Part shown: positions 18,759-36,328 of the stretch, piece after piece
Position numbering within the stretch: position 1 is the stretch's first letter
Layout: each line of letters starts with the position of its first letter
Assembly (NCBI GenBank): GCA_956465555.1
Contig: OY101117.1
Location: 744,001 to 808,000, forward strand
Length of the DNA stretch: 64,000 bases
Origin: Nitzschia sp. pyKryTriq1
Lineage: Eukaryota; Bacillariophyta; Bacillariophyceae; Bacillariales; Bacillariaceae
Reading direction: 5' to 3'
Notes under the pieces: generated by a model
What the model was told of the DNA's origin: nothing
Database searches by the model: none
The model's input: only the letters and a program-made list of their open reading frames with translations
Made by a program: the position numbers and the translations under genes

Positions 18759-21584
18759 GTGCGCAAACGAAACGATTTTGCAATATCACCAAGCGCCAGT
18801 CGAAAGATGGGCCGTCGGAAAGAAGAAAGGCGTACTAATAACGAATCGAAGAATTCTCCCAAGAAGACACTATCAGCGGGAAGATCTGAAAGTTCTACGA
18901 GCTTATCACAAAGGGAGGACCGCATGCAAGTGCTGGATCTAGTTGACATTGCTGCTACTAGAGGCCCATCCGACGGTGCATCAGATTCAAATAATTTGTC
19001 AACAGGCGGTCGACCGAGACTGGCTCAGGAAGAATCATCCTGTTCATCTGGTGCTGCTCAACCCAAACAGCCACCACGAAGAAGGCATTATGACCACGGT
19101 GAAGGCAGAGGAAAAACGAAGGTACAGGATTCACTGTCTTGTTCCCAGTCGGTGATGACTACAGAAAGTGAAAGGGAGGGAATGAGCACTTTGGATTTGG
19201 TGATTGGGAAACGCTATGCATCTTTAACCTCTCCCGAAAGTGACAGGGGGCAACTACAGACGCCAACTTTAAAACGAGGTGATGCTTCAAATCCAGTTAT
19301 GTTGGAAGCTGGCACAGGTGTTCTTGTGGATCATTTGGTGTCAGGCAATAAGCTCGATTTGTGGGATCGGTGGCGTCGTACAGCAGGAGGCCCTAGTGGA
19401 ACCAATAACAACTTCGGATCGAGTTCCGAGAAACGTACCGAACGACGAGAGGTGTACTTTGAACGAAGTGATGGTTCAATGTCAACGATTATGCCGGACC
19501 CTCCATCTTTACACCAAAGGGGTCACTACGCTGCTCCGGGGGCATTTCGCATGAGTTCAGGCGGTACCAACGACGACGTCGAATCATTAATTGACTCCGT
19601 CACAAGCTACCCGACTGTTGGAAGACGAAACGCGAGCGGATCACCAGCCATCGTTGAGGCTAGTCTAGTCTACGATGATCAAGTCCCAAGTGATGATTAC
19701 CCTCCTATTCCTGCGTCAGCGTTCACAGTCAGCATGGGGGGGAACACGTTGATTACCACAGATACTACGACTACAACAAAGGCGAGTCCGATTGTCGAGG
19801 CTATACCTCTGGATGAAATCCAAACCGTGAAAGCATTCTTCAGCACTCGGAAAGTTAAATGCTTCCTCCTTGCCCTTACTGTGGTGTTCGTTATCCTGGC
19901 GCTTGGAACGGCATATGGTGTCAATGGGTTTCAGCAAAGCAGATTATCCAAAGATTCCAGTGCTTCCTATTATGACGATCCCCCCACCAATCCCCCTACC
20001 ACAGAAGGTGACTTGGAATTGGAGTACTTTTTGAAAGTTGCGATACCAGATTACACGCGATCGGCATTACGCTTGCAGAATTCGCCACAAAGTAAAGCCC
20101 TCTCATGGCTTGGAAACAATACATTCCTTGGAAGCTACGACCTTTCTCGTCGCATGCAGCGCTTTTCTCTCGCGACGTTCTATTTTTCGACAGGTGGCGA
20201 CCGTAGATGGGACAACAATTCTGGCTGGCTCTCAGATGATCACGAGTGTACCTGGTTCTTTTCAACAGACCAGATAGAGGGCAATTTCGAACCATGTGAC
20301 AACAACACGTTGACCAGATTCTCATTGGTAGAAAACAATATGCGAGGGACATTTCCACTTGAAATATCGTTCTTGAGTTCTCTCGAAGTTTTGGAGATGC
20401 CAAGAAATGTCCTTACTGGATTCTTACCAACTACGCTCGGACAAATGAGCATTCTCCGTTCCGTGCATCTTTTTGACAACTATTTGAGTGGCACCGTGCC
20501 GAGTGAAATTGGGGATGCCTCGAGTTTGGAAGTTTTTGATGTTGGTGAGTGCTCCTCGCATCATGGTCAGCCGACTTGTAGAAGCCCACAGGTCGTTCCT
20601 TCCGAAACTCACCAGTTTACTCCGCGGTGAACCAACAGAGTACAATTTGATGGCTCAACTTCTGCCCGAAACACTAGGGCGACTTTCCAATCTGAAGGAG
20701 CTACTGCTTGATCGTAATTTATTGCGAGGAAATATTCCGATTGAATTCGCTCGTCTTTCCAACCTCGGTACGAGCGATCACAAAATTTAGCTTGCACTCT
20801 TACATATATGGGGGGACGAATGCACTCAACTCTGTCTTTCGTTACTCTTTCTTCAGAGACATTTTATCTGTTTTCGAACTCGTTCAGTGGTACAATCCCA
20901 ACGGAGGTAGGATATCTATCAAATCTGCGGAGTATAAGATGGGAAGTCAACAGGCTTTCCGGGAACATTCCTACCGAGATTGGCCTCCTGGAAAACGTAG
21001 TTGATCTCAGTATCGGAAACAACACTCTACGTGGCTCTATCCCTTCCGAAATTGGAGCTCTATCACAACTTTCTTACTGTGATCTATTTTGGAACTTTCT
21101 ATCGGGAACTATTCCAACTGAAATTGGTCGCTTGACAAACGTCGAACGAATGTATTTCGAGCGGAATCGATTGGAGGGTCCTATTCCATCCGAGCTGGGA
21201 AACATGAAGAGATTAAGCCGGCTTTGGCTTTACTCCAATGCATTGACGGGCACGTTGCCCAGCGACTTTGGGCGACTGAGCAATAGCATCACCAACTTGG
21301 ACGTGTCATTCAACGATATATCGGGAAGCCTTCCGACAGAGATTGCAAGATTGACGAACATCGAATCGCTTTCCTTGGAATTCAATTCCTTCACGGGTCG
21401 TATTCCTTCTGAGCTTGGGCGTCTCACTAAACTCTCTCTGCTGGCACTTCATGAGAACTTTTTCACTGGGACTATTCCTTACGAGATTTGTCTGCTCAAG
21501 GCATTCGGGAGCCTTGACAATATCGTCGTCGACTGTTCGATGGTCACATGCGATTGTTGTGTTTGTAGCTCCGATTTGGAATAA
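18759..21584 (+). CDS. Leucine-rich-repeat transmembrane protein, diatom LRR type
   Basis: Three exons: 18759-20544, 20639-20767 and 20857-21584 (introns 94 and 89 bp, both phase 1), giving 880 residues. The joints restore LRR periodicity (FDVEYNLMAQLLPETLGRL and SNLETFYLFSNSFSGTIP). The first ~365 residues are hydrophilic and Ser/Arg-rich with no signal peptide. A single TM helix follows at about 366-388 (CFLLALTVVFVILALGTAYGV), then a Pro-rich spacer, a WDNNSGWLSDDHECTW cap-like segment, and about 12 plant-type LRRs (consensus LxxNxLxGxIPxEIGxL). The end is a Cys cluster, VDCSMVTCDCCVC, typical of diatom LRR proteins. The topology implies a cytosolic N-terminus and an outside or lumenal LRR domain. 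There is no kinase domain. A recognition or adhesion role is inferred. Confidence 0.88.
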
Positions 21585-22121: not shown

Positions 22122-22952
22122 ATGAGGCTGTGTAGCTTTATCATGACGATAGCCACTTTGGTGGAGGTTGTGGTGCCTGAATCCAACTTTGATCCGTATG
22201 CTGCCAACGGTGGCCTTGTGAGCGCTGTCGCCGGCAAAGATTTCTGCATCATTGCTGCCGACACTCGCATGAGTGGTTCGGGGTATTTACTTCATTCTCG
22301 AAATCATTTGGCTAGCCGCCTTTGGACTGTCAATGACGATCCTATCATGACGCAAGTTGAAGAGACCTTGCGATCATCCTATGATAGCGAGTCGCCTCCT
22401 GCTGTGGTGGAACGCCAGCTGGCGCTCTCGCAAGCTCCCATGCTGATCGGATCCTCAGGGTGCACCGCGGACTGCCGGGCACTACAGTCTGATCTTCGCG
22501 CTGATTTGCGAGTTGCCAGTCACTTGGGGCAAGCCAAAATCCAGGTTCCAGATCAAGTGGCCACTACCTTGAGTCAAATGTTGTATCAGCGCCGTGGATT
22601 TCCGTATTATGCATTTTGTGTTGCGGCGGCCTTGGATGCCGAGTCTCAAAGGGGTCAGGTCTATGTTTACGATGCCATTGGATCCTATGAGCAAGTAGCC
22701 GTGGCAACATCGGGCACCGGGCGGGAGGCGCTGCAGCCAATTTTAGACCGAATGTTTGAAACCGCTCGGGAGTCTCCTCGGCAAGTCGAAGGGACTGCCT
22801 CCAACGCCGTGCGCAAACTTTGTCAGGCGTACCGATCTGTTTCGGAACGAGAGATTGAAGTCGGTGATAAGCTGGTCCTACATGTTACCGAGGTACTGGA
22901 CGGCGGCATGGTGAATTGCAAGGTTATTGTTGTACCATTGAAAGAAGACTAG
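22122..22952 (+). CDS. PSMB1: 20S proteasome subunit beta type-1 (beta-6)
   Basis: 276 residues, no intron; Met9 is an alternative start. It matches the beta-6 subunit: FDPYAANGGLVSAVAG, FCIIAADTRMS, MLIGSSGCTADCRAL, MLYQRRGFPYY, YVYDAIGSYEQVAVATSGTG, LQPILDRM, and a C-terminal ISEREIEVGDK-like helix (VSEREIEVGDKL). The subunit is structural in the core particle. The residue after the Gly-Gly is Leu, so no N-terminal Thr nucleophile is present, as expected for a non-catalytic beta subunit. Relative to animal PSMB1 it carries an insertion of roughly 35-40 residues (WTVNDDPIMTQVEETLRSSY... to QLALSQAP, about residues 67-105) before the MLIGSSG strand. Confidence 0.95.
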   Translation: MRLCSFIMTIATLVEVVVPESNFDPYAANGGLVSAVAGKDFCIIAADTRMSGSGYLLHSRNHLASRLWTVNDDPIMTQVEETLRSSYDSESPPAVVERQLALSQAPMLIGSSGCTADCRALQSDLRADLRVASHLGQAKIQVPDQVATTLSQMLYQRRGFPYYAFCVAAALDAESQRGQVYVYDAIGSYEQVAVATSGTGREALQPILDRMFETARESPRQVEGTASNAVRKLCQAYRSVSEREIEVGDKLVLHVTEVLDGGMVNCKVIVVPLKED

Positions 22953-24304: not shown

Positions 24305-27217
24305 ATGGAGGGGACGAGCATTGTGAATAGTAGCGCTGTTATTGTTGCTGCTGCTTGTGAGGAAGAGGCTCGTCGCCGGCGGCGACACAAGAGATCGTTG
24401 GTGTCGCCGGATGACAAGGAAAATGACACGACAAGCATCCATCGTCGCAGTAGCAGTAGCAACCCCAAGAAGAAGAAGAAGAAAAAGAAAACCAAGAATG
24501 ACAACGACAATGACAGTTGCGAACACGAACGAAGCAAGAAGAAATCCAAAAGGCAGCGTTCACAGAAAGACCGCAACTCGAAAAAAACGACCACCAAGAC
24601 TACTACTCGTACTTTGCTAACAATGACACCCAACGCCGTGGAGTCACTCGTGGCGTTTGCGCAGTCTTCGGGCAAAGACAAGCCTTGTCTCGAAAAAGAT
24701 CTTGTCGTCCGGATCCGTCTGGAAGAGAACAGCAATAGCAGCTCCAAGTGCTTGTATGGTTCTTTGGAGAAGCCCCCTCATGATCAGACGTTACTAGCGA
24801 CTCTCGATGACAGCACGCATACACTTCCAGTGTTGCTCTTGAACGATCCCCGCAATGATCTACTCCAAAGTCACTTGGCAAGCGCGTCTACCGGTTGGAT
24901 TACCGTGGTGGCGCGTGGTCTGATTGCCACCGATGGGCACAATTCACGATACGACCTCGATCCTATCGTTTGCTTGACAACGGTTGAAATTCTCTCCAAG
25001 ATGCCTCTGGAAGTGGAAGCCAGTGGCCTCGGAAGCCCCTACCGTCTGCCAACTAGAGCTTCGTCATCATTGCCGCAATCGCCTTCTCCAGGAGGACAGC
25101 AGCAACAGCAGCAGCAGTCTTCCAGCTCCAGCACCGCTCGTGTTCGTGCCGGTACTGTCGGCAGCTTCTTGGATCAGACACTTCCCTTTATCACGACCGA
25201 CGAGTTCACACGGTGTCATGATACAACCACACAGCGTTTGCTTCTATCCGAGCCATTCTCCTCCTTATCTTCCACCACAGACGATGATTATGAAACGAAA
25301 CGTGGTGAGGATTCTGTAGTTGCCTCCATTGAGACCTTGAACCAGCACGCCGAACAAGTACAAACCTTTTTGACGCGGCATTCTGCCATGATGACCCTCC
25401 AGGCCAACTCCCAGCCCACGGAGCATGCGGTTCAAAATTACACGAACGCTCTCCGCGAATTTGCATCGTCTCAATTGGATCGACAAAAGGCGTCCTTGGC
25501 CACAAATGCCGGTCGAGAGGCAGAAGATCGTGCCAGTCTAATTACTCTACAGTATACCGATGTCTTGGAACGAGCCATGTCGAAACATGACGATGAATGG
25601 AGTACTAATGGTTCCAAAGAAAAAGATCGGGTAGGAGAGGGTGATTGTTTGACTTCGAACCGGTTGCTCCAGTGGCATTCCACACTCTTGAACGATTTAC
25701 ACACAGAAGCGGGCCAAATCCGTACGAAGACGGTCCGTGCGGGCCATACAGTATTTTGCCGGCCCAAGGAGATTGCCGGCGAGTTGGACAAATTTTGTTT
25801 GGCCTTGACCAACCTGCAGGAACGCCTTCATCTGGGACGGGCGAAGACGACCATTGGTGGTAGTTCTCGTCCTTCGACTCCCACCTCGTCAACCAATAAT
25901 ACGGCCTCCTCGGCGACCAATGCCTGGCATGCCATCTTGTTTGCCGCCGTGGCCATGTATGGGATTGTCGATATTCATCCCTTTGCCGATGGAAATGGCA
26001 GAATGTCCCGAATCGTTGCCAATTGGGCTCTCAAGTCTTTTCCCTTTACCATCAACTTGTTTGCCACTCCCGCGCAGCGTGCGGAATATATTTTGGCGTT
26101 GGAGCAAACTCGTCATTTACTGAGCCTCTCAAATCAAAAGAAGATTCACGGGGCTGTCACGTCTCATGAAATCTTGCAAGTCACCAAGTCGATCGGTATT
26201 TTTGCCCCGTTGGTACGACTGTTGATGGACAGAATGGGACGGGCTGTGGTGGAATTTCATCGCGTGTGGCAAGAAAAGTCGGGCCTTGCGGCCGAAGCGT
26301 TGGAATGCAAGGCCGCCCGACAAGCTAGGGAAAGAGCCAAGGAAGGAACCTGTATTATTTGCCTAGACGAAAATCCCAACATTGCCACCTTGTGCTGTGG
26401 AAAGGCTGTCCACTTGAATTGTATTGCGGAATGGCTGAGTGGCAAGAATTCATGCCCGTGCTGTAGATCCGAGTTGCCCTCCATCAGTGGGCGTGTCGTT
26501 CGAGCAGCACGAAACGGTGCAACTGCCCGTGGTGACAATGGAGGAGGCGACGGAGATGCAGTCAGTCCGTCGAGCCGACGTTTACACAGACGTTATTTTC
26601 GAAATGCGCACGACGTCATTGTGAACTTGCTGAATAACTATAATGGGGAAAACCACAACAGTACAACGGAGACGGCAGAAGACGATGGCTATGATAGCGC
26701 ACATGATACTACGACAGCAGAAGTTCGATACGGCGATGACGACGAGGACGAAATTATTCTAGACGAAGATGACGAGGAGGGGTCGTCGTCCTCTTCTGAT
26801 GAGGACGATGATTCTTCGGATGAAGATTCCTTGGAAGATAGCGACGATTCCTCCTATGTGATGATTGCGAGAAGCGTCCCACGAACTACTGATCGCATCG
26901 AAGATCATGATTCAGGGCTTTTGTCGGGACAAGAGAGCAGTCAGGACGATGCAAGTATTACTTCAAGCCACGAAAATGGTAGAGATCAAAGTGACAACTC
27001 CCAAGACTACGTTGCTGGACCAGATAGTGATATGGGTCAGGATACGACTGCTGAAGACGAAGAGAATGGCCCAGTAGACGCCCTCACCCCCAGAGTTAAC
27101 GAATACTGTGATGCTTTGTACTGTCGGAACCGTCCGGCGATCGATTGTGCGAACAGTCTATGTGGGCGTTGCTGCGTGTTGGGAGGCGAATTTCACTGCC
27201 CAAGGCACAATTCGTGA
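24305..27217 (+). CDS. Fic-domain / RING-finger fusion protein (intact Fic motif)
   Basis: 970 residues in one exon. Order: a basic, Lys-run N-terminus (about 20-100, NLS-like); an uncharacterised region (130-230); a Q-rich linker; a Fic domain at about 345-610; a C3HC4 RING at about 683-722 (CIICLDE ... CCGKAVHLNCIAEWL ... CPCC); a long Asp/Glu/Ser acidic tract; and a C-terminal Cys/His cluster (YCRNRPAIDCANSLCGRCCV ... CPRH). The Fic motif is HPFADGNGRMSR with His558, the full catalytic HPFx(D/E)GNGRxxR. Fic enzymes usually transfer AMP from ATP to a protein hydroxyl; RINGs recruit E2 enzymes for ubiquitin transfer. A dual AMPylation/ubiquitin-ligase protein is inferred. The usual inhibitory (S/T)xxxE(G/N) helix is not clearly present. 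A paralogue lies tail-to-tail 98 bp away. Confidence 0.9.
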   Translation: MEGTSIVNSSAVIVAAACEEEARRRRRHKRSLVSPDDKENDTTSIHRRSSSSNPKKKKKKKKTKNDNDNDSCEHERSKKKSKRQRSQKDRNSKKTTTKTTTRTLLTMTPNAVESLVAFAQSSGKDKPCLEKDLVVRIRLEENSNSSSKCLYGSLEKPPHDQTLLATLDDSTHTLPVLLLNDPRNDLLQSHLASASTGWITVVARGLIATDGHNSRYDLDPIVCLTTVEILSKMPLEVEASGLGSPYRLPTRASSSLPQSPSPGGQQQQQQQSSSSSTARVRAGTVGSFLDQTLPFITTDEFTRCHDTTTQRLLLSEPFSSLSSTTDDDYETKRGEDSVVASIETLNQHAEQVQTFLTRHSAMMTLQANSQPTEHAVQNYTNALREFASSQLDRQKASLATNAGREAEDRASLITLQYTDVLERAMSKHDDEWSTNGSKEKDRVGEGDCLTSNRLLQWHSTLLNDLHTEAGQIRTKTVRAGHTVFCRPKEIAGELDKFCLALTNLQERLHLGRAKTTIGGSSRPSTPTSSTNNTASSATNAWHAILFAAVAMYGIVDIHPFADGNGRMSRIVANWALKSFPFTINLFATPAQRAEYILALEQTRHLLSLSNQKKIHGAVTSHEILQVTKSIGIFAPLVRLLMDRMGRAVVEFHRVWQEKSGLAAEALECKAARQARERAKEGTCIICLDENPNIATLCCGKAVHLNCIAEWLSGKNSCPCCRSELPSISGRVVRAARNGATARGDNGGGDGDAVSPSSRRLHRRYFRNAHDVIVNLLNNYNGENHNSTTETAEDDGYDSAHDTTTAEVRYGDDDEDEIILDEDDEEGSSSSSDEDDDSSDEDSLEDSDDSSYVMIARSVPRTTDRIEDHDSGLLSGQESSQDDASITSSHENGRDQSDNSQDYVAGPDSDMGQDTTAEDEENGPVDALTPRVNEYCDALYCRNRPAIDCANSLCGRCCVLGGEFHCPRHNS

Positions 27218-27315
27218 AGACTTGCATAGATGGCATGAAACGCCTCTCGTTCCCCTCTATTGAAGACAATTTTGACAGTAACCATAAGAGTAGCGGGTTT
27301 ATTCATTATGGAAAA

Positions 27316-29670
27316 TTAGCTGTAGTGGGTGCGGTCTTCGTAGCAGACACCAATTACCTGCTCCCTGGATCCACGATGATGTATGCACGAATCCTCGTGA
27401 AGGCGGCAGCACGTGCCGCACCGTTTGTTACAGCATTCTCTCGTAGCGCAGTTCTGGCAGTTTCCTTCGACACAAAGGGCAGGCGGATCTCCAGCTCGGG
27501 TCGCTGGTGAGACGGACTCACAGTATTCGTCCTCTACGGCTTGGTACGCTACTCTCTCGTCGGAACTGCTGTGCTCCGATCCATCGTAGCCATCCGACTC
27601 GTACACAAAGCTATCGCGGATGAGCCATGGCGCCCTCGTCGTTGTAAAATGTTGCTCGCCCACAAGTTGCCTCGAGAGTGAACGCGAAGTTTGCTCGGGA
27701 AGCACCAGATGACGAGGAACCATCAACGGCATAGCGAGCTCCGAGCTCGTTACATCGTGATGTGTCACCTCAGACTGACTGTCTTGACTACTCGAATCAT
27801 CGCCATGGACCGCAGGGTGAACATCATCTGCTGTTCGTGGCAAATAGACGTCCCGGGCTGCTGCATGGAGATCGAAGAGGGAAGCCTGGGCGGCATGGAC
27901 ATTGCCTAAGAGGGAAGGATCGAGAAATGAAAGCCTTGGGAAATTTCCATTTGTTCGCACTGCATCAAGATCATGTCGTAGACGATCTTCGAAGCTGTCC
28001 GAGCTACTGCTCGAGTCTGTTTCTTGGGTCAATACATGGAACTCTGGATCATCTTCACTATCCGCGAACTGGTCCCTCGTCAGTGTGCGCACAGAATCTG
28101 CTTGTCGTGGATTAAACACGAAAGGTTCAGAAGACGCGGCAGAAACGTCAGATGATTCTGCCACCCCTTCTGACCTTGAAGCGGTCTCCGGGTCGTTCAA
28201 CATTTCCTCGTATCCCAAATCAGGATCATCAGTCTCGTGCTCCTCGTCATCTGTGCTGCCATATTGAACACGCCAACGGGTAGCACTATATGATAAAAGT
28301 GATACACCTGAAGAAGACGACGAGGAGCTTGAAGATGAGGAAGAAGATGACGACGAAGATGACGACGAAGAAGAAGAGGAGGAGGAGGAGTCATCCGTGG
28401 CTTCGTTTGCAAGATAGGTGAGGAGCTCTCCAACTATCGAATCCGCTTCGAAGCTATCTTCATCGTATCGAGTGCCAAAGCGGTTGCGCTTCGGCAATTG
28501 GAGTGAAGGCAAATCATTGCGACACTGAGGGCAATTCGTATGGTTTTGGAGCCACTCAGCGATGCAGTTCAGATGAACAGTCCTTCCGCAGCAAAGGGTC
28601 GCCATGTTTGGAGCGGTATCCAAACATATGATGCACGTGCCCTTTGAGGCTTGCAATTCGCGTGCTCGACGAACGACCTTCGCCTCGGCTTCTTCCGTAG
28701 CTAACTGATCTTTTTCGTTTACTAGCTTTCCGAAGTCATCCACTGCGCATGAAAGTCGATTCACCAGGACAGCCACTAACGGCGAAAGTAGACCCGGCCG
28801 TTTGAGAACTTCCTGCCAATCCAAGTAGCCAATTTTGCCATTCTGTGCAAAGCAAATATTTCTTCGCGTCTTCTCCATAGCGAATATATACTCCACCTTC
28901 TGGGCCGGCGTTTGATACAATAGGGCAATAAGAGGAATGCCACATCGTTGCAGTGCCCATGTGAGGACAACCTGCGCAAGTTGGCTATCATAGATGTTGC
29001 GATTGGGCTTGATAGTTTCAGAAGCAAAAAAGGCCGTCAAAGCAAACGTGATAGGTTTCAGGGACGCCATTTTGCTTGGCTTCTTCGTTGAATAGTCTAT
29101 ATGAGTCGTTCCCATGGTTTCCAGTGCTTGGATCAACGTTTCAGTCTCCGCATCAATCGCTTCTGCCGGGCAAGAGACGATACTCGTCTCGGGCGGCCCC
29201 TTTGGCTTCTTTCCTGATAGCAGCTCGTACCACCTTACAAGCATATCTTTATTCAGAGGTTTGTCCGTCTGAAGTGCATTTTCCAAAGCCTTTCGCTTTC
29301 CCTCCAGATCCTCCATCGTCTCCTCCTCGACGCTGAACAAACTAGCTGTGAGGTTTTCTATCTGTGACTCTTGGAATTCTCGCAGGGCTCTCGTATAATT
29401 TTGAAGTGCGTCGTTTGTCGATTTGGTTGGACACCTGTTCTTCCACGGTGATGACGAATGAGCGTCCGAACTGCCTTCTTGCAGTGATTGCAGTGCAAGA
29501 TACTGCACCGAAAAGTCTGTGATCTTCCATACTTTTTTCTGCACATCCGGTGCGAGATCAAATTCTGTAGCAAACTCAAAGCAAATATCAACTGATTTTG
29601 AAGCTCTAATATGTCCCTCCTCACGGAGTTCTTCCAGTGTTGCCGAATGACTCACGGTTGGTGGGTCCAT
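27316..29670 (-). CDS. RING-finger protein with degenerate Fic domain, paralogue of the convergent gene
   Basis: 784 residues, no intron. It aligns with the neighbour over NYTRALREFQ (NYTNALREFA), the helix before the Fic loop, TPAQKVEYIFAMEKTRR (TPAQRAEYILALEQTRH), and the RING (residues 346-383: CIICLDTAPNMATLCCG, VHLNCIAEWL, CPQC). The catalytic Fic motif is lost: the equivalent of HPFADGNGR reads KPNRNIYDS (about 221-229), so His and the GNGR loop are gone. After the RING are a poly-Ser run (about 28310-28390), acidic low-complexity sequence, and a C-terminal Cys/His cluster (CNKRCGTCC ... CIHH). It probably retains E2 binding but not AMP transfer. It may act as regulator, partner or competitor of the intact paralogue. 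Confidence 0.87.
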   Translation of the reverse strand: MDPPTVSHSATLEELREEGHIRASKSVDICFEFATEFDLAPDVQKKVWKITDFSVQYLALQSLQEGSSDAHSSSPWKNRCPTKSTNDALQNYTRALREFQESQIENLTASLFSVEEETMEDLEGKRKALENALQTDKPLNKDMLVRWYELLSGKKPKGPPETSIVSCPAEAIDAETETLIQALETMGTTHIDYSTKKPSKMASLKPITFALTAFFASETIKPNRNIYDSQLAQVVLTWALQRCGIPLIALLYQTPAQKVEYIFAMEKTRRNICFAQNGKIGYLDWQEVLKRPGLLSPLVAVLVNRLSCAVDDFGKLVNEKDQLATEEAEAKVVRRARELQASKGTCIICLDTAPNMATLCCGRTVHLNCIAEWLQNHTNCPQCRNDLPSLQLPKRNRFGTRYDEDSFEADSIVGELLTYLANEATDDSSSSSSSSSSSSSSSSSSSSSSSSSSSGVSLLSYSATRWRVQYGSTDDEEHETDDPDLGYEEMLNDPETASRSEGVAESSDVSAASSEPFVFNPRQADSVRTLTRDQFADSEDDPEFHVLTQETDSSSSSDSFEDRLRHDLDAVRTNGNFPRLSFLDPSLLGNVHAAQASLFDLHAAARDVYLPRTADDVHPAVHGDDSSSQDSQSEVTHHDVTSSELAMPLMVPRHLVLPEQTSRSLSRQLVGEQHFTTTRAPWLIRDSFVYESDGYDGSEHSSSDERVAYQAVEDEYCESVSPATRAGDPPALCVEGNCQNCATRECCNKRCGTCCRLHEDSCIHHRGSREQVIGVCYEDRTHYS

Positions 29671-30568
29671 ATCGAATGTATGGAAGGGTGGAGGTCCCCT
29701 GTAATTACACGGAAGACAAACGAGAATTGAAAATTCGGATTGCTCCTCGCTATCAAGACGATGACTTTTTCAATGTATGGATCACCCCTCAAAGTGATTC
29801 ATCACAAGAGGACTGGTTTCTTGGCAACTTGTGAGGGTCAGAGATACTGTTTGTAAACATGCACCGTCGAGGAAAAGGAAAAGCCACTTTTTGCAGACTA
29901 CCTCACTTCGTATGGTACAGTAGAACATATCCCACCATCGTCGATCCCTGTCGATCGAAAAGCAAAGAGATTTTTCTCAGAATTTGCGTGGATAGACATC
30001 CTACGTAATCTCCCGTAGAATTCGTACTGGAGAGACTTCTTGTTAGGTCAGTACTGAGCCCACAGGTACCTGCTGGTACGTGACCGATGCTTTCGGCTTG
30101 CTTTCGGCGGGTCTCAGTCGAGTGACTTCTTCGACTGCATCCTTCAGGACAGGATACTATTTTTTTCTTCTCGTACTTTACTATTGCTCTAATGCTTCCT
30201 TTCTCCTTTCAGTATAAGTAATCTATTCGTCCAAAAGTGTCTGTTAGTATTATATTTTGATGCACAGTATGGATATAAGAGTTTCGTACGAATGACAAGT
30301 AGCTTTATAGTTTTCCTCGAGTGGTACTGTACACGTTTCAATAAGTGATCCTATCCCTTCCGTTGCTTCCAAAGTAATAGATTTGAAAGGGTTACTTTTG
30401 TTGCCCCCTGTGCGGTCGTTAGCTTGTCCGATCTGTCGAGATAAATATGGATACTAGCTTCTAGACCGACATGGGTTGTGCCCTCTCCAAAGTATTCAAA
30501 GACATTTTATCAAAGAAACAAACATCACCACCATTTCACAAACACCCACAAACAAATAAGCAGAAATG
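29671..30568. other. Intergenic upstream of degenerate Fic-RING gene
   Basis: About 900 bp. It contains GTACCTGCTGGTACG at 30065-30079 and AT-rich unique sequence at 30170-30300. No gene or RNA was recognised. Confidence 0.5.
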
Positions 30569-32194
30569 CTAGCTCGCCAAACGGTATACATATTCCGGAA
30601 GCTCCTCTTCTCCCGACATGACTTCAGAAGCCACCGCTCTCAAAGATACTGTGTACAGCATTGGTAATTCCTCGCCATAAAGTTCTTCCGCCGCCTCGAT
30701 GAGGCTGAAATCCATGACGATTGTCGCCAAGGAGGGACAGTGGATCCAACTATCTGAAAGTGCATCATACCATCGTTTTGTATATGCTGGCGATTGTAGA
30801 GCGGCATTTTCCAGGACTTCCTTCACTTCCTCGTCCATATCGTCCTCCAGCTCATTATCTTCTGTGTCTCGAATCATTTTGCGGATTTCTTCTAGAACCA
30901 GAGTGTCACGATCGATCTTTCCAGCCTCCTTCGCCGGACTTGTAGGGACCTCATCAGTAGTCTTGACGGGAACCAAGTCTTCGTCGATCGATTTCACAGC
31001 TGACATCTTCTGTTTCAAAAGCTCTTCACTATTGCTGTGAGGTTGTTCAAAGTGCCCTTCTGGTATTGCAGATGAGACAAACTTTTCTTCCTCATCCGTA
31101 CGCTCATGCAATAAAGTTATCGCAGGTAGCTCTTGCTCGATTGGTTTCTCATCAGGAACAGCAATCGGAGCTACCACCTCTTCTTCAACCGGATTCACGG
31201 CTGACATTACTTCATCCTCCATTGATTTATCGTCAGGGACAGCTATCGGAGTTACCATCTCCTCTGCGACCAATGGCACTGTTGGAGCCATGTCTACCGG
31301 CGGCTCAAACTCTTGAAATTCTTCTTCATTTCGCTCTTTTGGTGTTTCATCATTTGGAGCTTTCTTCTCATCTTCGGTGTCCTGGCGTAGTAAGTTTATC
31401 GTTGGGAGGTGTTCTTTTCCTTGTTGCTGTGTTTCTTCGCCTTCTTTCTTTCGTCTCGAAATTACGTCTCCCTTCGCCGTGTGCTTGGGTGTGAATTGGC
31501 CTAGAGCGCTTCCTCGCTTTCCACGCAAACTTTGTGACATCCAAGTTGGAGATTGACCATCCGCACCAGTCGAATTATTATTACTTTCTTCATCACGTTT
31601 GTGTTCAAAAGCTTTCATTCGTTCACGAATACTTCCAATCTTTGGAACCTCTTCTTTTTTTGTAGAAACAGGAGTTGCTTCTTGCTGTGACGGCGGAGGG
31701 AAAGGGAAAGCCCTCAAGGTCATTTTCTTTGTTGTAGGCGTCACGACTTCGACCGGGGTCTCGTGTGGTGGTTCCTCCTTGTGTGGTTCCAATGCCGATG
31801 GTGACGACGACGATGATGACTGTTGCTTTGGTTTCACGACAAATTTCTTTTGGATTTGTCGTGGACTCACAAACACGGACAGATCTTCCATAGTCTGCCG
31901 GGTGCTCTTTCTCTTTTCGACGAAAGATCCGTCCTGCTGATGCTGATGCTGCTGTTGTTGGGTCAGCTCGGCTTTCGTCGTCGTTACCGCCGCCATCGCT
32001 ATTTTCTTCTTATAGAAACCACGAGGAGACACCGCCAGCCGAGCAACATCAGCAGGGGCACCTATGGAACCAGAAGCTCTCTCTTCCCACGAGCTCAACA
32101 AGCTTTTGATCTTGCCGGATGGCGACGGGCCTCCATTCACTGCGGTTGTGGTTGGACTTGTTGTGGGCTTCTGCGTTGCTTCCATGGTCGTCAT
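30569..32194 (-). CDS. Acidic low-complexity protein of unknown function
   Basis: 541 residues, one exon; Met4 is an alternative start. The N-terminal third is basic and Ser/Thr/Gln-rich (SGKIKSLLSSWEERAS, SPRGFYKKKIAMA, SPRQIQKKF, SIRERMKAFEHKRDEE), a set of short motifs spaced by disorder. The middle is acidic with a two-fold repeat: EEMVTPIAVPDDKSMEDE and EEEVVAPIAVPDEKPIEQE. The C-terminal ~70 residues look folded (TKRWYDALSDSWIHCPSLA, FSLIEAAEELYGEELP). No known domain, signal peptide or TM segment was recognised. It diverges from the SAP-like gene at 33086. Confidence 0.65.
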   Translation of the reverse strand: MTTMEATQKPTTSPTTTAVNGGPSPSGKIKSLLSSWEERASGSIGAPADVARLAVSPRGFYKKKIAMAAVTTTKAELTQQQQHQHQQDGSFVEKRKSTRQTMEDLSVFVSPRQIQKKFVVKPKQQSSSSSSPSALEPHKEEPPHETPVEVVTPTTKKMTLRAFPFPPPSQQEATPVSTKKEEVPKIGSIRERMKAFEHKRDEESNNNSTGADGQSPTWMSQSLRGKRGSALGQFTPKHTAKGDVISRRKKEGEETQQQGKEHLPTINLLRQDTEDEKKAPNDETPKERNEEEFQEFEPPVDMAPTVPLVAEEMVTPIAVPDDKSMEDEVMSAVNPVEEEVVAPIAVPDEKPIEQELPAITLLHERTDEEEKFVSSAIPEGHFEQPHSNSEELLKQKMSAVKSIDEDLVPVKTTDEVPTSPAKEAGKIDRDTLVLEEIRKMIRDTEDNELEDDMDEEVKEVLENAALQSPAYTKRWYDALSDSWIHCPSLATIVMDFSLIEAAEELYGEELPMLYTVSLRAVASEVMSGEEELPEYVYRLAS

Positions 32195-33085
32195 GATCGT
32201 CTAGATTCTGGTGATGATGAATCCAATCTTCGAGAGCAATCACTTCATCTACTAGACTATATTAAGAGGACACCGCCTTCTCTTGCTTTCCGAATAAGAA
32301 AGAGAAAGAAGAAGGAACAGATCGCATCCGGTTTCCGGTTTCAACAGTGGGAAGAATCATCCTCGCTGTTGACGCTTGACGCCCGGTCGGGCGGGCGGGT
32401 GGATAACACGACAAAAAATCGAAGGTTTGTTTCTCTATCTCCCGCCACCCCGACCCATAATGAGCGACGACTCGTCCCTCGTCATATTATGATGATGCGC
32501 CTCTCCACTCCGTCCGAGTGTTCGATGACGTATTTGAAAAGTGGCCGGCGCGAAATACTAAATAAGCCCTAGAAAGTCGACACGAATTGCGACAGACATT
32601 ATTTATTGAAAATTGGAATCACAGTAAAGCACTAAGTAAATAATTGTCTACATCATACAGTGTAGCAATATGCATTTCTACGCAAGCAAGAAGGGACATT
32701 ATTTTATTCGAGCAGGAGGTATTGTATGTAACGAGCGAAGAAGCAGGAAAACTCGTACAGGTACAGTACAGCAGTCGTACAGTTAGTAGACCATGTACTT
32801 CTACTGTACGTACTGTACCGCCGGTAAGTGTGGATAACAGCGAAAAGCGATCCTCGATCTTGTGCTTCCCGCAGGCCTGCCTCATCTTCCGCTCCTCTTT
32901 TTCTTCACATGCTGCATACTGGTACAATAGCAGAAGCGAGCAACCAACGCAGTCCATACGACCAGTTCAGACCAGTTCAGTTCGTCCACTCCTTGCTAGC
33001 TTACTGCACACACAGTCGTTCGAGTTCTCTAGAGCTACCGGTAGCGAGGAGAGACCAGAGACACGGGTATCGCCTAAAGGCGACG
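32195..33085. promoter_or_regulatory. Divergent intergenic region
   Basis: 891 bp between divergent genes. GTACAGGTACAGTACAGCAGTCGTACAG and GTACGTACTGTACCG words sit at 32756-32822; CGGTCGGGCGGGCGGG at about 32382-32397; an imperfect duplicated GACCAGTTCA at 32960-32979. The upstream reading frame of the SAP-like gene is open through part of this region, but only the ATG at 33086 has a sensible context. Confidence 0.45.
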
Positions 33086-36000
33086 ATGGCAATAATGGAT
33101 CCTCCGCCACCAAACGAAAACCTTGTGGATCACGCCGACGGTGGAAGCCATATTGGCGACAATTCAACAATCGGAAGCAAGGATGAGGAGTCGTCGTCCA
33201 CTAGAAACGATGTCAACGGCAACGGTCACAATGGCAATATCGCGACTCCTCAAGTCGCGACAATATCCAGTAACGTTGAACAAGAGTCATCGTCAACGCC
33301 ATCGCGGTCGGGCGAACTCAAACAGGCGGAGGACAGTGTTTCAGATGTTGCCGCGGACGAGCCCCAGTCGAAAGTTCAATTCACTCGTCAAACGCTCTCG
33401 GAATATCAAGCCGCGAAACAGAAAGCCAAGCAAGTGAAAATGGCCGCCATCATGAGTGACATGGCAACGCTAGAGACAGAAGCTTCGTTGATGGAACCGT
33501 CGGACAGGAATCGAAGTAGTAGCTGGCAACCTGCGTCTAGCCAAGGTCAAGGTCATTCAGACGCTTACAACAGTGTTCCGAATTTACCAACATCGCCCCA
33601 GAAACAGGTTTCCAAAACGACCGCGAAGAGAGTTCCGTCGAGTGGATCGCACTCCCCGAAATCCATAAGATTGAAGAATCGGGCCAGGGCATCAGACACT
33701 CTGTACTCTAAATCCGATCACGGGCCCTCCCGGCGGCATCAAAATCAACATCACGACCAGCATCAATCCGAAAAAGATGTCAACCTGTCATACCAGCGCC
33801 TACGTCAACAAACGTCCCGCCCAAATAGGCCGGTGAACACTCCCATGTCGGGCGAGGACGTCAAAATGGGATATGCCACCTTGCTGAGTCGCAACCACAC
33901 TGCAGGAGCCATGCCTCCGGGCCAAAGTATGGGAACAGCGAGTAGCATGACAATGTCCTGGGGCGGCGACGGCGATGACTCCAGCGACGATCTCACACTT
34001 TTGCGGGACGACGACTGTAGTGACGAGGAAGACGTGCGCGCGCGTCATCGACCCTTGAATCGGTCGGGAAATAACAATAATTCTTCTTCACAAACACCGG
34101 GTGGTGCAGTGTTCGATGAAAACGCTATCAAGACTCAATACGCTCGGATGGGCATTGCGGCTAGGCGGCCTCTATCGGGAGGAGGGGAAGGCCTTCCCTC
34201 GCAGAGCGAACACGGAACAAAGAGTACAAGAATGAATCAAAGACGACCAGCTTCTTCGCACCCATTCATAGACGACGATGATGATCCACGAGCAACCACA
34301 AATCAACTGGAGGCAGAACTGATACGAAAGTCCTTATCGATGACTAATGACGCGTCACAAGAAGCAGCACAACAGGAAACAGAAGAGGATAGACCCTGGC
34401 CGAGCGCACTTGCCTACGACCCCACTAGGCCTGGAGCCCATGGAATCCACGCTCCAGGTTCGCAGGAGACGCCAGACAGGAGGGAGGGATTTGAGCGATA
34501 TGATAGTTATTTGACCAGCCGTGATCAATATTTGGTTTCTGCGACATTGGTGGACAAAGACGACGACGACGACGACGAAGATCGCCGGAAGCTGGCCAAG
34601 GACAGGAGCGAGCGGTTTCGTTTGTTAGAAAGCCGTCAGGCAGAGTTAGAGCAACAAATCGCGGAACAGAAAAATCTGATTTTGAAACATAATGAAGAAT
34701 TGAACCGCTTGAAAAACTCTCATGGAGAAATTGTGCAGGCCGAGGTGGTAGGGGATCAATCGAATACAGAACTGGGACGTCAGATTCGACAGCGAGAATC
34801 CATCATTGCTGAAAAAGAAGCCGAGCTGAGCACGTTGATGGGAAGATCAATCCCGGGAATGGGTTTGCTGAAAAGATACGATCAAAAGAAAGAGAAGAAA
34901 AAGAAGGGAAAACTCATGAGCAAACTGAATCCATTTCGAAAAACCACCGAGACCATCCGAGAGCTTGACGAAGATAACAACAGCTTGATGTCTTCCAGCA
35001 CTCACTCGAAGAAGCAAAGCTCTCATCACAAACGGCCCTCAATTAATACATCCAGTCACGAGAGAGATGAAGACGGGTGGAGTGGCTCTTCTCGGGGCGG
35101 AAGCGGTTCTTTTCGTGGAGATATGGATGTTTCTGGTCACGACGCTAGTGAGAACAATTTACCAAGCAGAGAAGCTCTTTTATTGGAAACTAAAAAGAGA
35201 TCGGAACGATTTATCGCTCCAGAAAAACTACCGTTTGATGACCACACAATTTCCGAGCTGAAACAAACTCCCGAAGACGCAAATGTAGATATTTCCGGAT
35301 GTGTCGAACGGGGGCAAATCGTCAAGAGACTCCAAGAGGCCGGTGTGAAACCTAAGAAGAAAGGTCCTCTCAACAAGTTTTTTGGCAAATCGAAGTCACC
35401 CAAGAATAGTCTCAACAAGTCTTCCTCGCACAGTCTGAACATGTCCTCACATTCGAAAAAGACTCCAAAGAAAGAAAATAAACGAGTTGTCGATATTCCA
35501 CCAGACGACATGCCAGCCCCCATGGTAATGGAGAAACAAGATTCCTTCTATGCCCCGAAACAGATCGATGTGTTTGACGGTATCTCTATTTCCCAACTCA
35601 AAAAGATTGCGCAGGATCGAAATGTGGACGTCACCACATGCACAGACCGAACTGATTTGGTCAATGTATTGTACGCAGCGGGAATGCGGCCACAGGGTGA
35701 AGGCGATCCTCCCAAGGACCCACTGCACGCTTTCAGTATTTCAGAACTCAAGAGGCTCGCTCATGCAAACAATGTGGATATTTCATCATGCGTAGAGAAG
35801 GGCCAAATCATCGGAGCTCTCAATGTCGCTGGTGTGCGGGCACCTAAGAAAGGATCGGCGACATCCAGCGGCGGAGTATCTTGGGAAAAACTGTCCATTT
35901 CGGAACTGAAAAAAATTGCTCGCCAAAAAAACGTTGACGTGTCCATGTGCGTGGAAAAGACGGAAATCATTTCTAAATTGCGTAGGGCTGGCGTCCCCCC

Positions 36001-36328
36001 TTCCCCGTCCAATGTGAAAAAGGCTGCCCCTAGACTCTCAAGAGGCGAGCTAGCAGAATGGCGACCAGCTCAGTTGCAGATACTAGCCATCCATATAGGC
36101 GCCACGTCGTCTGGAAGTGCGGGCTCGGGAGACCTCTTGTCCAAGATCATACATGTTGCCAACGAAGAAAAAAAGAAGCTTCGCGCTCCCATCCGGGCGA
36201 TTGCATCTCTTGGCCCCGCCCCACTCGGAAAACTTCGGAATTTCGCCAAAGAAAAGCGTGTGGATATATCAGGATGCGTCGAAAAGGATGAGATGCTTCA
36301 GCGTATTGTTCAAAAGTATGTCCGGTAG
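33086..36328 (+). CDS. Large protein with coiled coil and C-terminal SAP-like repeats
   Basis: 1080 residues from ATG 33086 (MAIMDPPPPNENL). The open frame begins at 32828, but the extra 86 residues look like translated leader. Residues 1-500 are Ser/Asn/Gly-rich and disordered, with repeated SEDVKMGYATLLSR-like and DENAIKTQYARMG-like elements. A coiled coil follows at about 502-546 (ESRQAELEQQIAEQKN). A Lys-rich stretch (KKEKKKKGKLMSKLNPFRK) comes next. The C-terminal third holds at least five helix-turn-helix units of about 38 residues at about 715, 829, 880, 932 and 1044, each built as (I/L)SxLKxxAxxxxVDxSxCVEKxxIxxxLxxAG. This resembles SAP/MANF-C-terminal-like motifs. These units could bind nucleic acid or protein. 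No enzyme domain is seen. Confidence 0.75.
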   Translation: MAIMDPPPPNENLVDHADGGSHIGDNSTIGSKDEESSSTRNDVNGNGHNGNIATPQVATISSNVEQESSSTPSRSGELKQAEDSVSDVAADEPQSKVQFTRQTLSEYQAAKQKAKQVKMAAIMSDMATLETEASLMEPSDRNRSSSWQPASSQGQGHSDAYNSVPNLPTSPQKQVSKTTAKRVPSSGSHSPKSIRLKNRARASDTLYSKSDHGPSRRHQNQHHDQHQSEKDVNLSYQRLRQQTSRPNRPVNTPMSGEDVKMGYATLLSRNHTAGAMPPGQSMGTASSMTMSWGGDGDDSSDDLTLLRDDDCSDEEDVRARHRPLNRSGNNNNSSSQTPGGAVFDENAIKTQYARMGIAARRPLSGGGEGLPSQSEHGTKSTRMNQRRPASSHPFIDDDDDPRATTNQLEAELIRKSLSMTNDASQEAAQQETEEDRPWPSALAYDPTRPGAHGIHAPGSQETPDRREGFERYDSYLTSRDQYLVSATLVDKDDDDDDEDRRKLAKDRSERFRLLESRQAELEQQIAEQKNLILKHNEELNRLKNSHGEIVQAEVVGDQSNTELGRQIRQRESIIAEKEAELSTLMGRSIPGMGLLKRYDQKKEKKKKGKLMSKLNPFRKTTETIRELDEDNNSLMSSSTHSKKQSSHHKRPSINTSSHERDEDGWSGSSRGGSGSFRGDMDVSGHDASENNLPSREALLLETKKRSERFIAPEKLPFDDHTISELKQTPEDANVDISGCVERGQIVKRLQEAGVKPKKKGPLNKFFGKSKSPKNSLNKSSSHSLNMSSHSKKTPKKENKRVVDIPPDDMPAPMVMEKQDSFYAPKQIDVFDGISISQLKKIAQDRNVDVTTCTDRTDLVNVLYAAGMRPQGEGDPPKDPLHAFSISELKRLAHANNVDISSCVEKGQIIGALNVAGVRAPKKGSATSSGGVSWEKLSISELKKIARQKNVDVSMCVEKTEIISKLRRAGVPPSPSNVKKAAPRLSRGELAEWRPAQLQILAIHIGATSSGSAGSGDLLSKIIHVANEEKKKLRAPIRAIASLGPAPLGKLRNFAKEKRVDISGCVEKDEMLQRIVQKYVR

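Follow-up and report, generated by a model that had tools for sequence, protein, structure and literature searches.

When two related genes meet tail to tail and only one of them retains the active site of an enzyme, what might its altered neighbor be doing? The question is posed by two convergent genes of the diatom Nitzschia sp. pyKryTriq1, here called A and B, which lie in a stretch of 64,000 nucleotides (GenBank assembly GCA_956465555.1, contig OY101117.1, positions 744,001 to 808,000; hereafter the window) on contig C3 of a 40.65 Mb genome in 20 contigs. Both genes code for proteins that combine a Fic region with a RING finger; the Fic site is intact in A and erased in B. The answer toward which we lean sees in B a conserved protein of the RING type that probably works as an E3 ubiquitin ligase; on this view its former Fic AMP-transferase domain no longer catalyzes and has been kept as a binding module.

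The initial annotation had recognized a Fic-RING paralogue pair separated by 98 bp, with the Fic site erased in one copy and with the RING and a C-terminal Cys/His cluster common to both, and on each of these points we agree. Both open reading frames (ORFs) are open at the coordinates of Table 1, and their stops are separated by 98 bp, with A running to 27217 and the stop codon of B starting at 27316 in forward-strand coordinates. The pairwise alignment that the annotation proposed gives 32% identity over 389 residues in BLASTP at E 2e-48, so that the likeness is not due to chance. The catalytic motif HPFx[D/E]GN[G/K]R appears in A as HPFADGNGR, and B reads KPNRNIYDS. In the loop alignment (A HPFADGNG-RMSR, B KPNRNIYDS-QLAQ) B is one residue longer, the general-base His is replaced by Lys and GNG by YDS, and both Arg of GNGRxxR stand opposite Gln. 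All the listed catalytic residues differ in B and likewise in P0112 (relatives carry P numbers), which shares 59% identity with B in the core; the flap stretch aligns poorly there. The Fic/Doc profile PF02661 scores 64.1 bits in A (cut-off 24, E 2.3e-17), and for B it returned no row at E up to 10 in Pfam and none in the genome scan.

Common descent with Fic proteins was recovered for B together with a predicted Fic fold, the latter through VIA-align, whose rows for B include dimeric FICD entries. The RING, the only entry among B's Pfam domains, scores 30.9 bits with PF13639 (cut-off 27.3) and retains eight Cys/His, W373 and the terminal R384, which we take from general RING biology to be the contacts with E2 and ubiquitin. 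Across the family the eight Cys/His columns of the RING are kept in 115-118 of 118 rows, and an adjacent Cys pair (C360 and C361 in B) is invariant (118/118). Further downstream, the tail motif R[LM]SFL[DE]P[SE]LL marks the B subfamily: it was found in 7/7 B-clade proteins and 0/114 other sequences scanned, P0001 and A being counted separately. A loose pattern for the C-terminal Cys/His cluster, which occurs in both A and B, matched 102 of the 121 scanned sequences, a total that includes both A and its copy P0001.

These comparisons draw on at least 118 relatives from three protein searches, including A itself as P0001; in two of the searches the 8000 and 7999 candidates sharing most words were scored. 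Precomputed Pfam labels assign Fic plus RING to 109 of them, Fic alone to 6 and RING alone to 3. The named relatives are all diatoms (Nitzschia inconspicua, Pseudo-nitzschia multistriata, P. heimii, Amphora coffeaeformis, Mayamaea pseudoterrestris, Cylindrotheca closterium, Bacillariaceae sp. and Fragilariopsis (kerguelensis)) and presumably all raphid pennates, with taxonomy consulted for P. heimii and F. kerguelensis. Given 109 of 118 relatives with both domains, AMPylation and ubiquitylation may reside in one chain. Among viral contigs no relative was found; the best 80 of 114 stretches on genome contigs were bacterial or archaeal records whose matches were confined to the Fic part, save for one whose match ran toward the RING (L020), itself a 319-residue Fic ORF without a RING.

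Against this background the loss in B stands out. The 117-protein alignment comprises A, B, a third paralogue C and 114 relatives (P0001 was dropped as identical to A, and P0116-P0118 were found later), and all 111 of the 111 rows that do not belong to the B clade are identical at the catalytic His, G, N, G and R and at the Arg of A473, taken as the flap Arg. With the later finds counted by eye, the catalytic His is absent in 5/120 distinct proteins, namely B, P0112, P0113, P0114 and P0116. Lesser damage occurs outside the clade, where the loop D of P0028 is V, the second loop Arg of P0096 is Lys, and the P or F position is variable in some rows; P0028 and P0096 are possibly further weakened Fic sites.

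In the tree of the 117 rows (midpoint-rooted for drawing) B groups with P0112, P0113, P0114, P0085 and P0042 (100/96), and this clade adjoins a 29-row clade holding A, with joint support of 97/91. A second tree of 38 rows chosen from 120, with the loop columns removed and P0116 added, recovers the B clade at 100/99. A single clade of A, B and P0112 is rejected in the 38-row set (approximately unbiased, AU, test, p 6.7e-5), and A and B are therefore ancient paralogues. A recent tandem duplication is ruled out by the same test and by the shortness of the inverted arm pairs: only two inverted repeats of at least 20 nt link A and B, one of 31 nt (81%) over the NYTxALREF codons and one of 20 nt (75%) in non-corresponding places.

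Within the B clade the motif forms a series, from the intact HPFSDGNGR of P0042 through HPFSNGNWR of P0085, where the next Arg is Gln, and VPF[EQ]VGNQR of P0113, P0114 and P0116, to KPNRN[IM]YDS of B and P0112. This natural series could be used to test how an AMP-transferase turns into something else. The dead Fic site may go back to one loss or to several: the six as one clade are not rejected (p 0.35), P0042 and P0085 are sisters at just 77/42, and a long-branch warning applies. The stem of the B clade measures about 1.0 change per site, which suggests fast change followed by constraint.

Constraint is visible in the replacement loop itself. B and P0112 agree at 13/15 positions over residues 219-233 and at 14/15 over residues 218-232, and the latter window ties with NYTRALREF as the best outside the RING (median 9/15). 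Ranked among pairs of similar RING identity, the Fic identity of B and P0112 is normal to high, at the 84th percentile of 334 matched pairs (from 6105 non-clade pairs), and that of P0112 and the intact P0042 ranks very low (0.6%); the pairs are not independent, so that these percentiles are descriptive. The frame of 784 codons is longer than any open stretch obtained when B was shuffled base by base 200 times, where the maximum was 241.

Table 1. Positions of the features of genes A and B in the window, with paralogue C for comparison.
Feature	Position	Strand	Basis
Gene A, 970 aa, RPA70N-like OB - Fic - RING - Cys/His, intact open frame	24305..27217	+	
A aa 105-237, beta-rich OB-like domain resembling RPA70N	24617..25015	+	model and family profile
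A aa 375-640, Fic fold core	25427..26224	+	
A aa 558-566, catalytic loop HPFADGNGR, intact	25976..26002	+	alignment
A aa 683-721, RING finger	26351..26467	+	Pfam and conserved columns
A aa 935-968, C-terminal Cys/His cluster	27107..27208	+	loose pattern
Gap between convergent genes A and B, 98 bp	27218..27315	.	
Gene B, 784 aa, pseudo-Fic - RING - Cys/His	27316..29670	-	open frame
B aa 733-765, C-terminal Cys/His cluster	27376..27474	-	predicted local distance difference test (pLDDT) 89-90 over aa 731-760; loose pattern; retained in P0042
B aa 579-588, tail motif RLSFLDPSLL, specific to the B subfamily	27907..27936	-	motif scan
B aa 346-384, RING finger	28519..28635	-	Pfam and conserved columns
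B aa 36-343, predicted Fic fold without catalytic residues	28642..29565	-	
B aa 221-233, replacement loop KPNRNIYDSQLAQ at the Fic active site	28972..29010	-	identity with P0112
Paralogue C, 780 aa, with Fic (HPFADGNGR intact), RING and, by eye, four Cys/His repeats at the C-terminus	811-3153 of L003, contig C7		

How B might work can be outlined from its parts. Its ancestor was probably an active OB-Fic-RING protein that AMPylated and ubiquitylated its clients, with ubiquitylation alone being kept in B. The Fic fold would then serve as a docking surface with the new loop that B has in common with P0112; B would bind a client or partner through this altered face and hand it over to E2 through the RING, and the tail motif might dock a further partner.

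The intact neighbor A carries, next to its Fic and RING domains (the latter at 28.7 bits with zf-RING_2, PF13639; cut-off 27.3, E 1.6e-6), an N-terminal OB-like domain modeled as five strands with helices, at high pLDDT except over residues 141-160. When the family profile of this domain was compared with the PDB, the N-terminal domain of RPA1/RPA70 made up 15/16 of the best rows at sub-threshold values (E 0.038-0.38), with coverage reaching 3-111 of 114 positions; Pfam Rep-A_N matched weakly, in 1/15 members (E 0.14), and in the VIA-align list for A Fic rows fill all 50 shown, with no OB-fold row among the matches listed. Likeness to RPA70N could suggest a role for A in the nucleus, in DNA damage or in replication, and A may act as an AMPylase-E3 fusion with clients picked by the OB-like and Fic domains. 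No NCBIfam model reached its cut-off in A, the best being an effector family at 27.5 bits (cut-off 450). This N-terminal domain, which the initial annotation had not noticed, is absent from B, and a lost OB exon upstream of B was sought with five N-terminal queries against 29671-32600 without a convincing remnant (best E 0.44).

Several observations weigh against our reading of B. The KPNRN loop is found in B and P0112 only, and P0112 is without the C-terminal Cys/His cluster. The long stem would also fit a period of relaxed selection, and the Fic identities of B with P0042 and P0085 are about what their RING identities would lead one to expect (26th and 18th percentile), so that the burst of change is weaker for B than for P0112. 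Alone of eight frames, B lacks a codon-usage excess (-0.002, compared with 0.012-0.042; the other seven frames served as the reference, and the score barely separates frames in general). The comparison of nonsynonymous and synonymous change (dN, dS) that the initial annotation had proposed is saturated for A and B (Fic dN 0.85, dS 2.5), and the other five comparisons gave no dS; selection on B is judged from protein identity. As for structure, Foldseek by itself gave FICD as the best row for B at E 0.03 and none at 0.001, a weak result, and the alignment supplied to AlphaFold2 included active Fic proteins, which favors a Fic fold. Part of the loss read from the alignment is the Arg at the flap position, in a region where B aligns poorly. 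The pLDDT of B's RING is just 49-80, its E3 activity is inferred, and the RINGs of both A and B, as we read them, have no Cys/His at the usual place of the fourth ligand; the adjacent Cys pair may substitute for this ligand, which would make a RING variant possible.

Two alternatives would deny B the role of a catalytically dead but conserved binding protein. We regard it as very improbable that B is a decaying pseudogene. The fast stem, the absence of the OB-like domain and the nil codon-usage excess would suit such decay, and the partly damaged site of P0085 indicates that loss can be stepwise, but the 784 codons are open and the loop, RING, tail motif and Cys/His cluster are conserved. The initial annotation had named frameshifts among the signs of pseudogenization, and no frameshift or stop was seen in B, which, as far as can be seen from the sequence, is unlikely to be a pseudogene. 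It is very doubtful, too, that the altered loop supports a new chemistry, as in AvrB rhamnosylation, in which case B would be no pseudoenzyme. Fido proteins with divergent motifs can work, according to the reports on AvrB (PMC10866546) and on Fic2 of Campylobacter fetus (PMC5651007), and the loop of B is conserved in P0112; the exchange of His for Lys, of both loop Arg for Gln and of GNG for YDS nonetheless removes the known nucleotide-binding set.

The position of B beside A calls for an account of its own, and the two that we weighed are both compatible with B being a pseudo-Fic RING protein. The initial annotation saw a regulatory couple, in which B would bind A or A's clients, for instance as a heterodimer, and restrain or scaffold the enzyme, adjacency resulting from joint action. 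Although ancient paralogues, A and B are adjoining and convergent in a 40.65 Mb genome where just three Fic-RING genes were found, and chance adjacency can be put at less than 1 in 1000, a rough estimate from the 22 ORFs of at least 250 residues per 64 kb; in C. fetus, a canonical and a degenerate Fic protein cooperate (PMC5651007). Yet at least seven B-clade proteins were found against 29 A-clade tree rows (B-types diverge faster and are thereby harder to find), and the nr-annotated sets behind such A-clade proteins as P0014 (N. inconspicua) and P0018 (P. multistriata) yielded none of the seven. Moreover, B lacks A's OB-like domain, and the length of the longest source contig never coincided between a B-clade match and another match, a weak test in that contig ends, clustering and gene calling may hide a neighbor. 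Conserved pairing was not found by this weak test, and we consider the couple unlikely; a functional link of some kind is possible, the genes being adjoining and Fic proteins such as FICD being able to dimerize. Evenly balanced, in our estimation, is the case for adjacency as the relic of an old inverted duplication, with A and B now independent. The deep split of their clades and the seemingly common occurrence of A-types without a found B-type agree with this, as do the two short inverted arm pairs, which point to no recent copy; linkage surviving from an old duplication would, on the other hand, require a long time free of rearrangement.

Beyond the locus, one might imagine a multi-gene family of AMPylase-E3 fusions in raphid diatoms (RPA70N-like OB, Fic, RING and Cys/His), linked to chromatin or replication stress, in which AMPylation disappeared at least once from a branch whose members, now pseudo-Fic E3s, counteract the active forms or redirect them, with B acting on A's clients; we hold this wider scenario to be quite unlikely. 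The genome contains three Fic-RING genes, A, B and the paralogue C, which had escaped the initial annotation. In the genome-wide profile scan, in which the best candidates were scored, only A and C reached the PF02661 cut-off. C falls in a distant 23-row branch of the 117-row tree (100/100), nearest to P0095 and P0101. Two Cys/His repeats were seen by eye in P0117 (Fragilariopsis), which is absent from that tree.

Other genes surround the pair. Upstream of A lies a gene for a 20S proteasome subunit (22122-22952, +; Pfam Proteasome, 5.9e-17), whose presence beside two RING genes is probably a coincidence. Two adjoining leucine-rich-repeat ORFs (18807-21584, +) are perhaps a single intron-split gene, and a 1139-residue ORF (32909-36328, +) weakly matches RNF34L-like and ARMET_C models.

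Among the papers listed by a literature search that left most subscription papers outside, none dealt with a Fic-RING family or with diatom Fic/Fido proteins, the one match on AMPylation in diatoms being irrelevant. A recent review, PMC12409994, describes eukaryotes as having a single Fic protein, in metazoans, and an earlier survey, PMC4454073, distinguishes four eukaryotic Fic/Doc groups. The metazoan FICD/HYPE combines a transmembrane segment with TPR repeats (PMC12409994), in contrast to the RING and Cys/His cluster of A and B and the RPA70N-like domain of A; Pfam lists no TPR family for A, B or C, and transmembrane segments were not scanned for. The canonical inhibitory motif (S/T)xxxE(G/N) occurs somewhere in 57/120 proteins, but it is absent from the aligned stretch in the 13 rows viewed, where A, P0013 and P0016 have SLxTNAGRE at the presumed inhibitory helix, and we draw no regulatory model from it. 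The N-terminal domain of A resembles RPA70N, but at E 0.038 or worse, and B has no such domain. The nearest pair of canonical and degenerate Fic proteins that we found is Fic1/Fic2 of C. fetus, which form a module; PMC5651007 presents a bacterial toxin-antitoxin system in which Fic2 keeps its His and is toxic, whereas B has lost the His and carries a RING. AvrB has a Fido fold, as is predicted for B, and likewise a divergent catalytic motif, but it is a bacterial effector and an active enzyme (PMC10866546), whereas B, which is eukaryotic, carries a RING and has no known activity. The case of AvrB is a caution against equating a divergent Fido motif with a dead enzyme.
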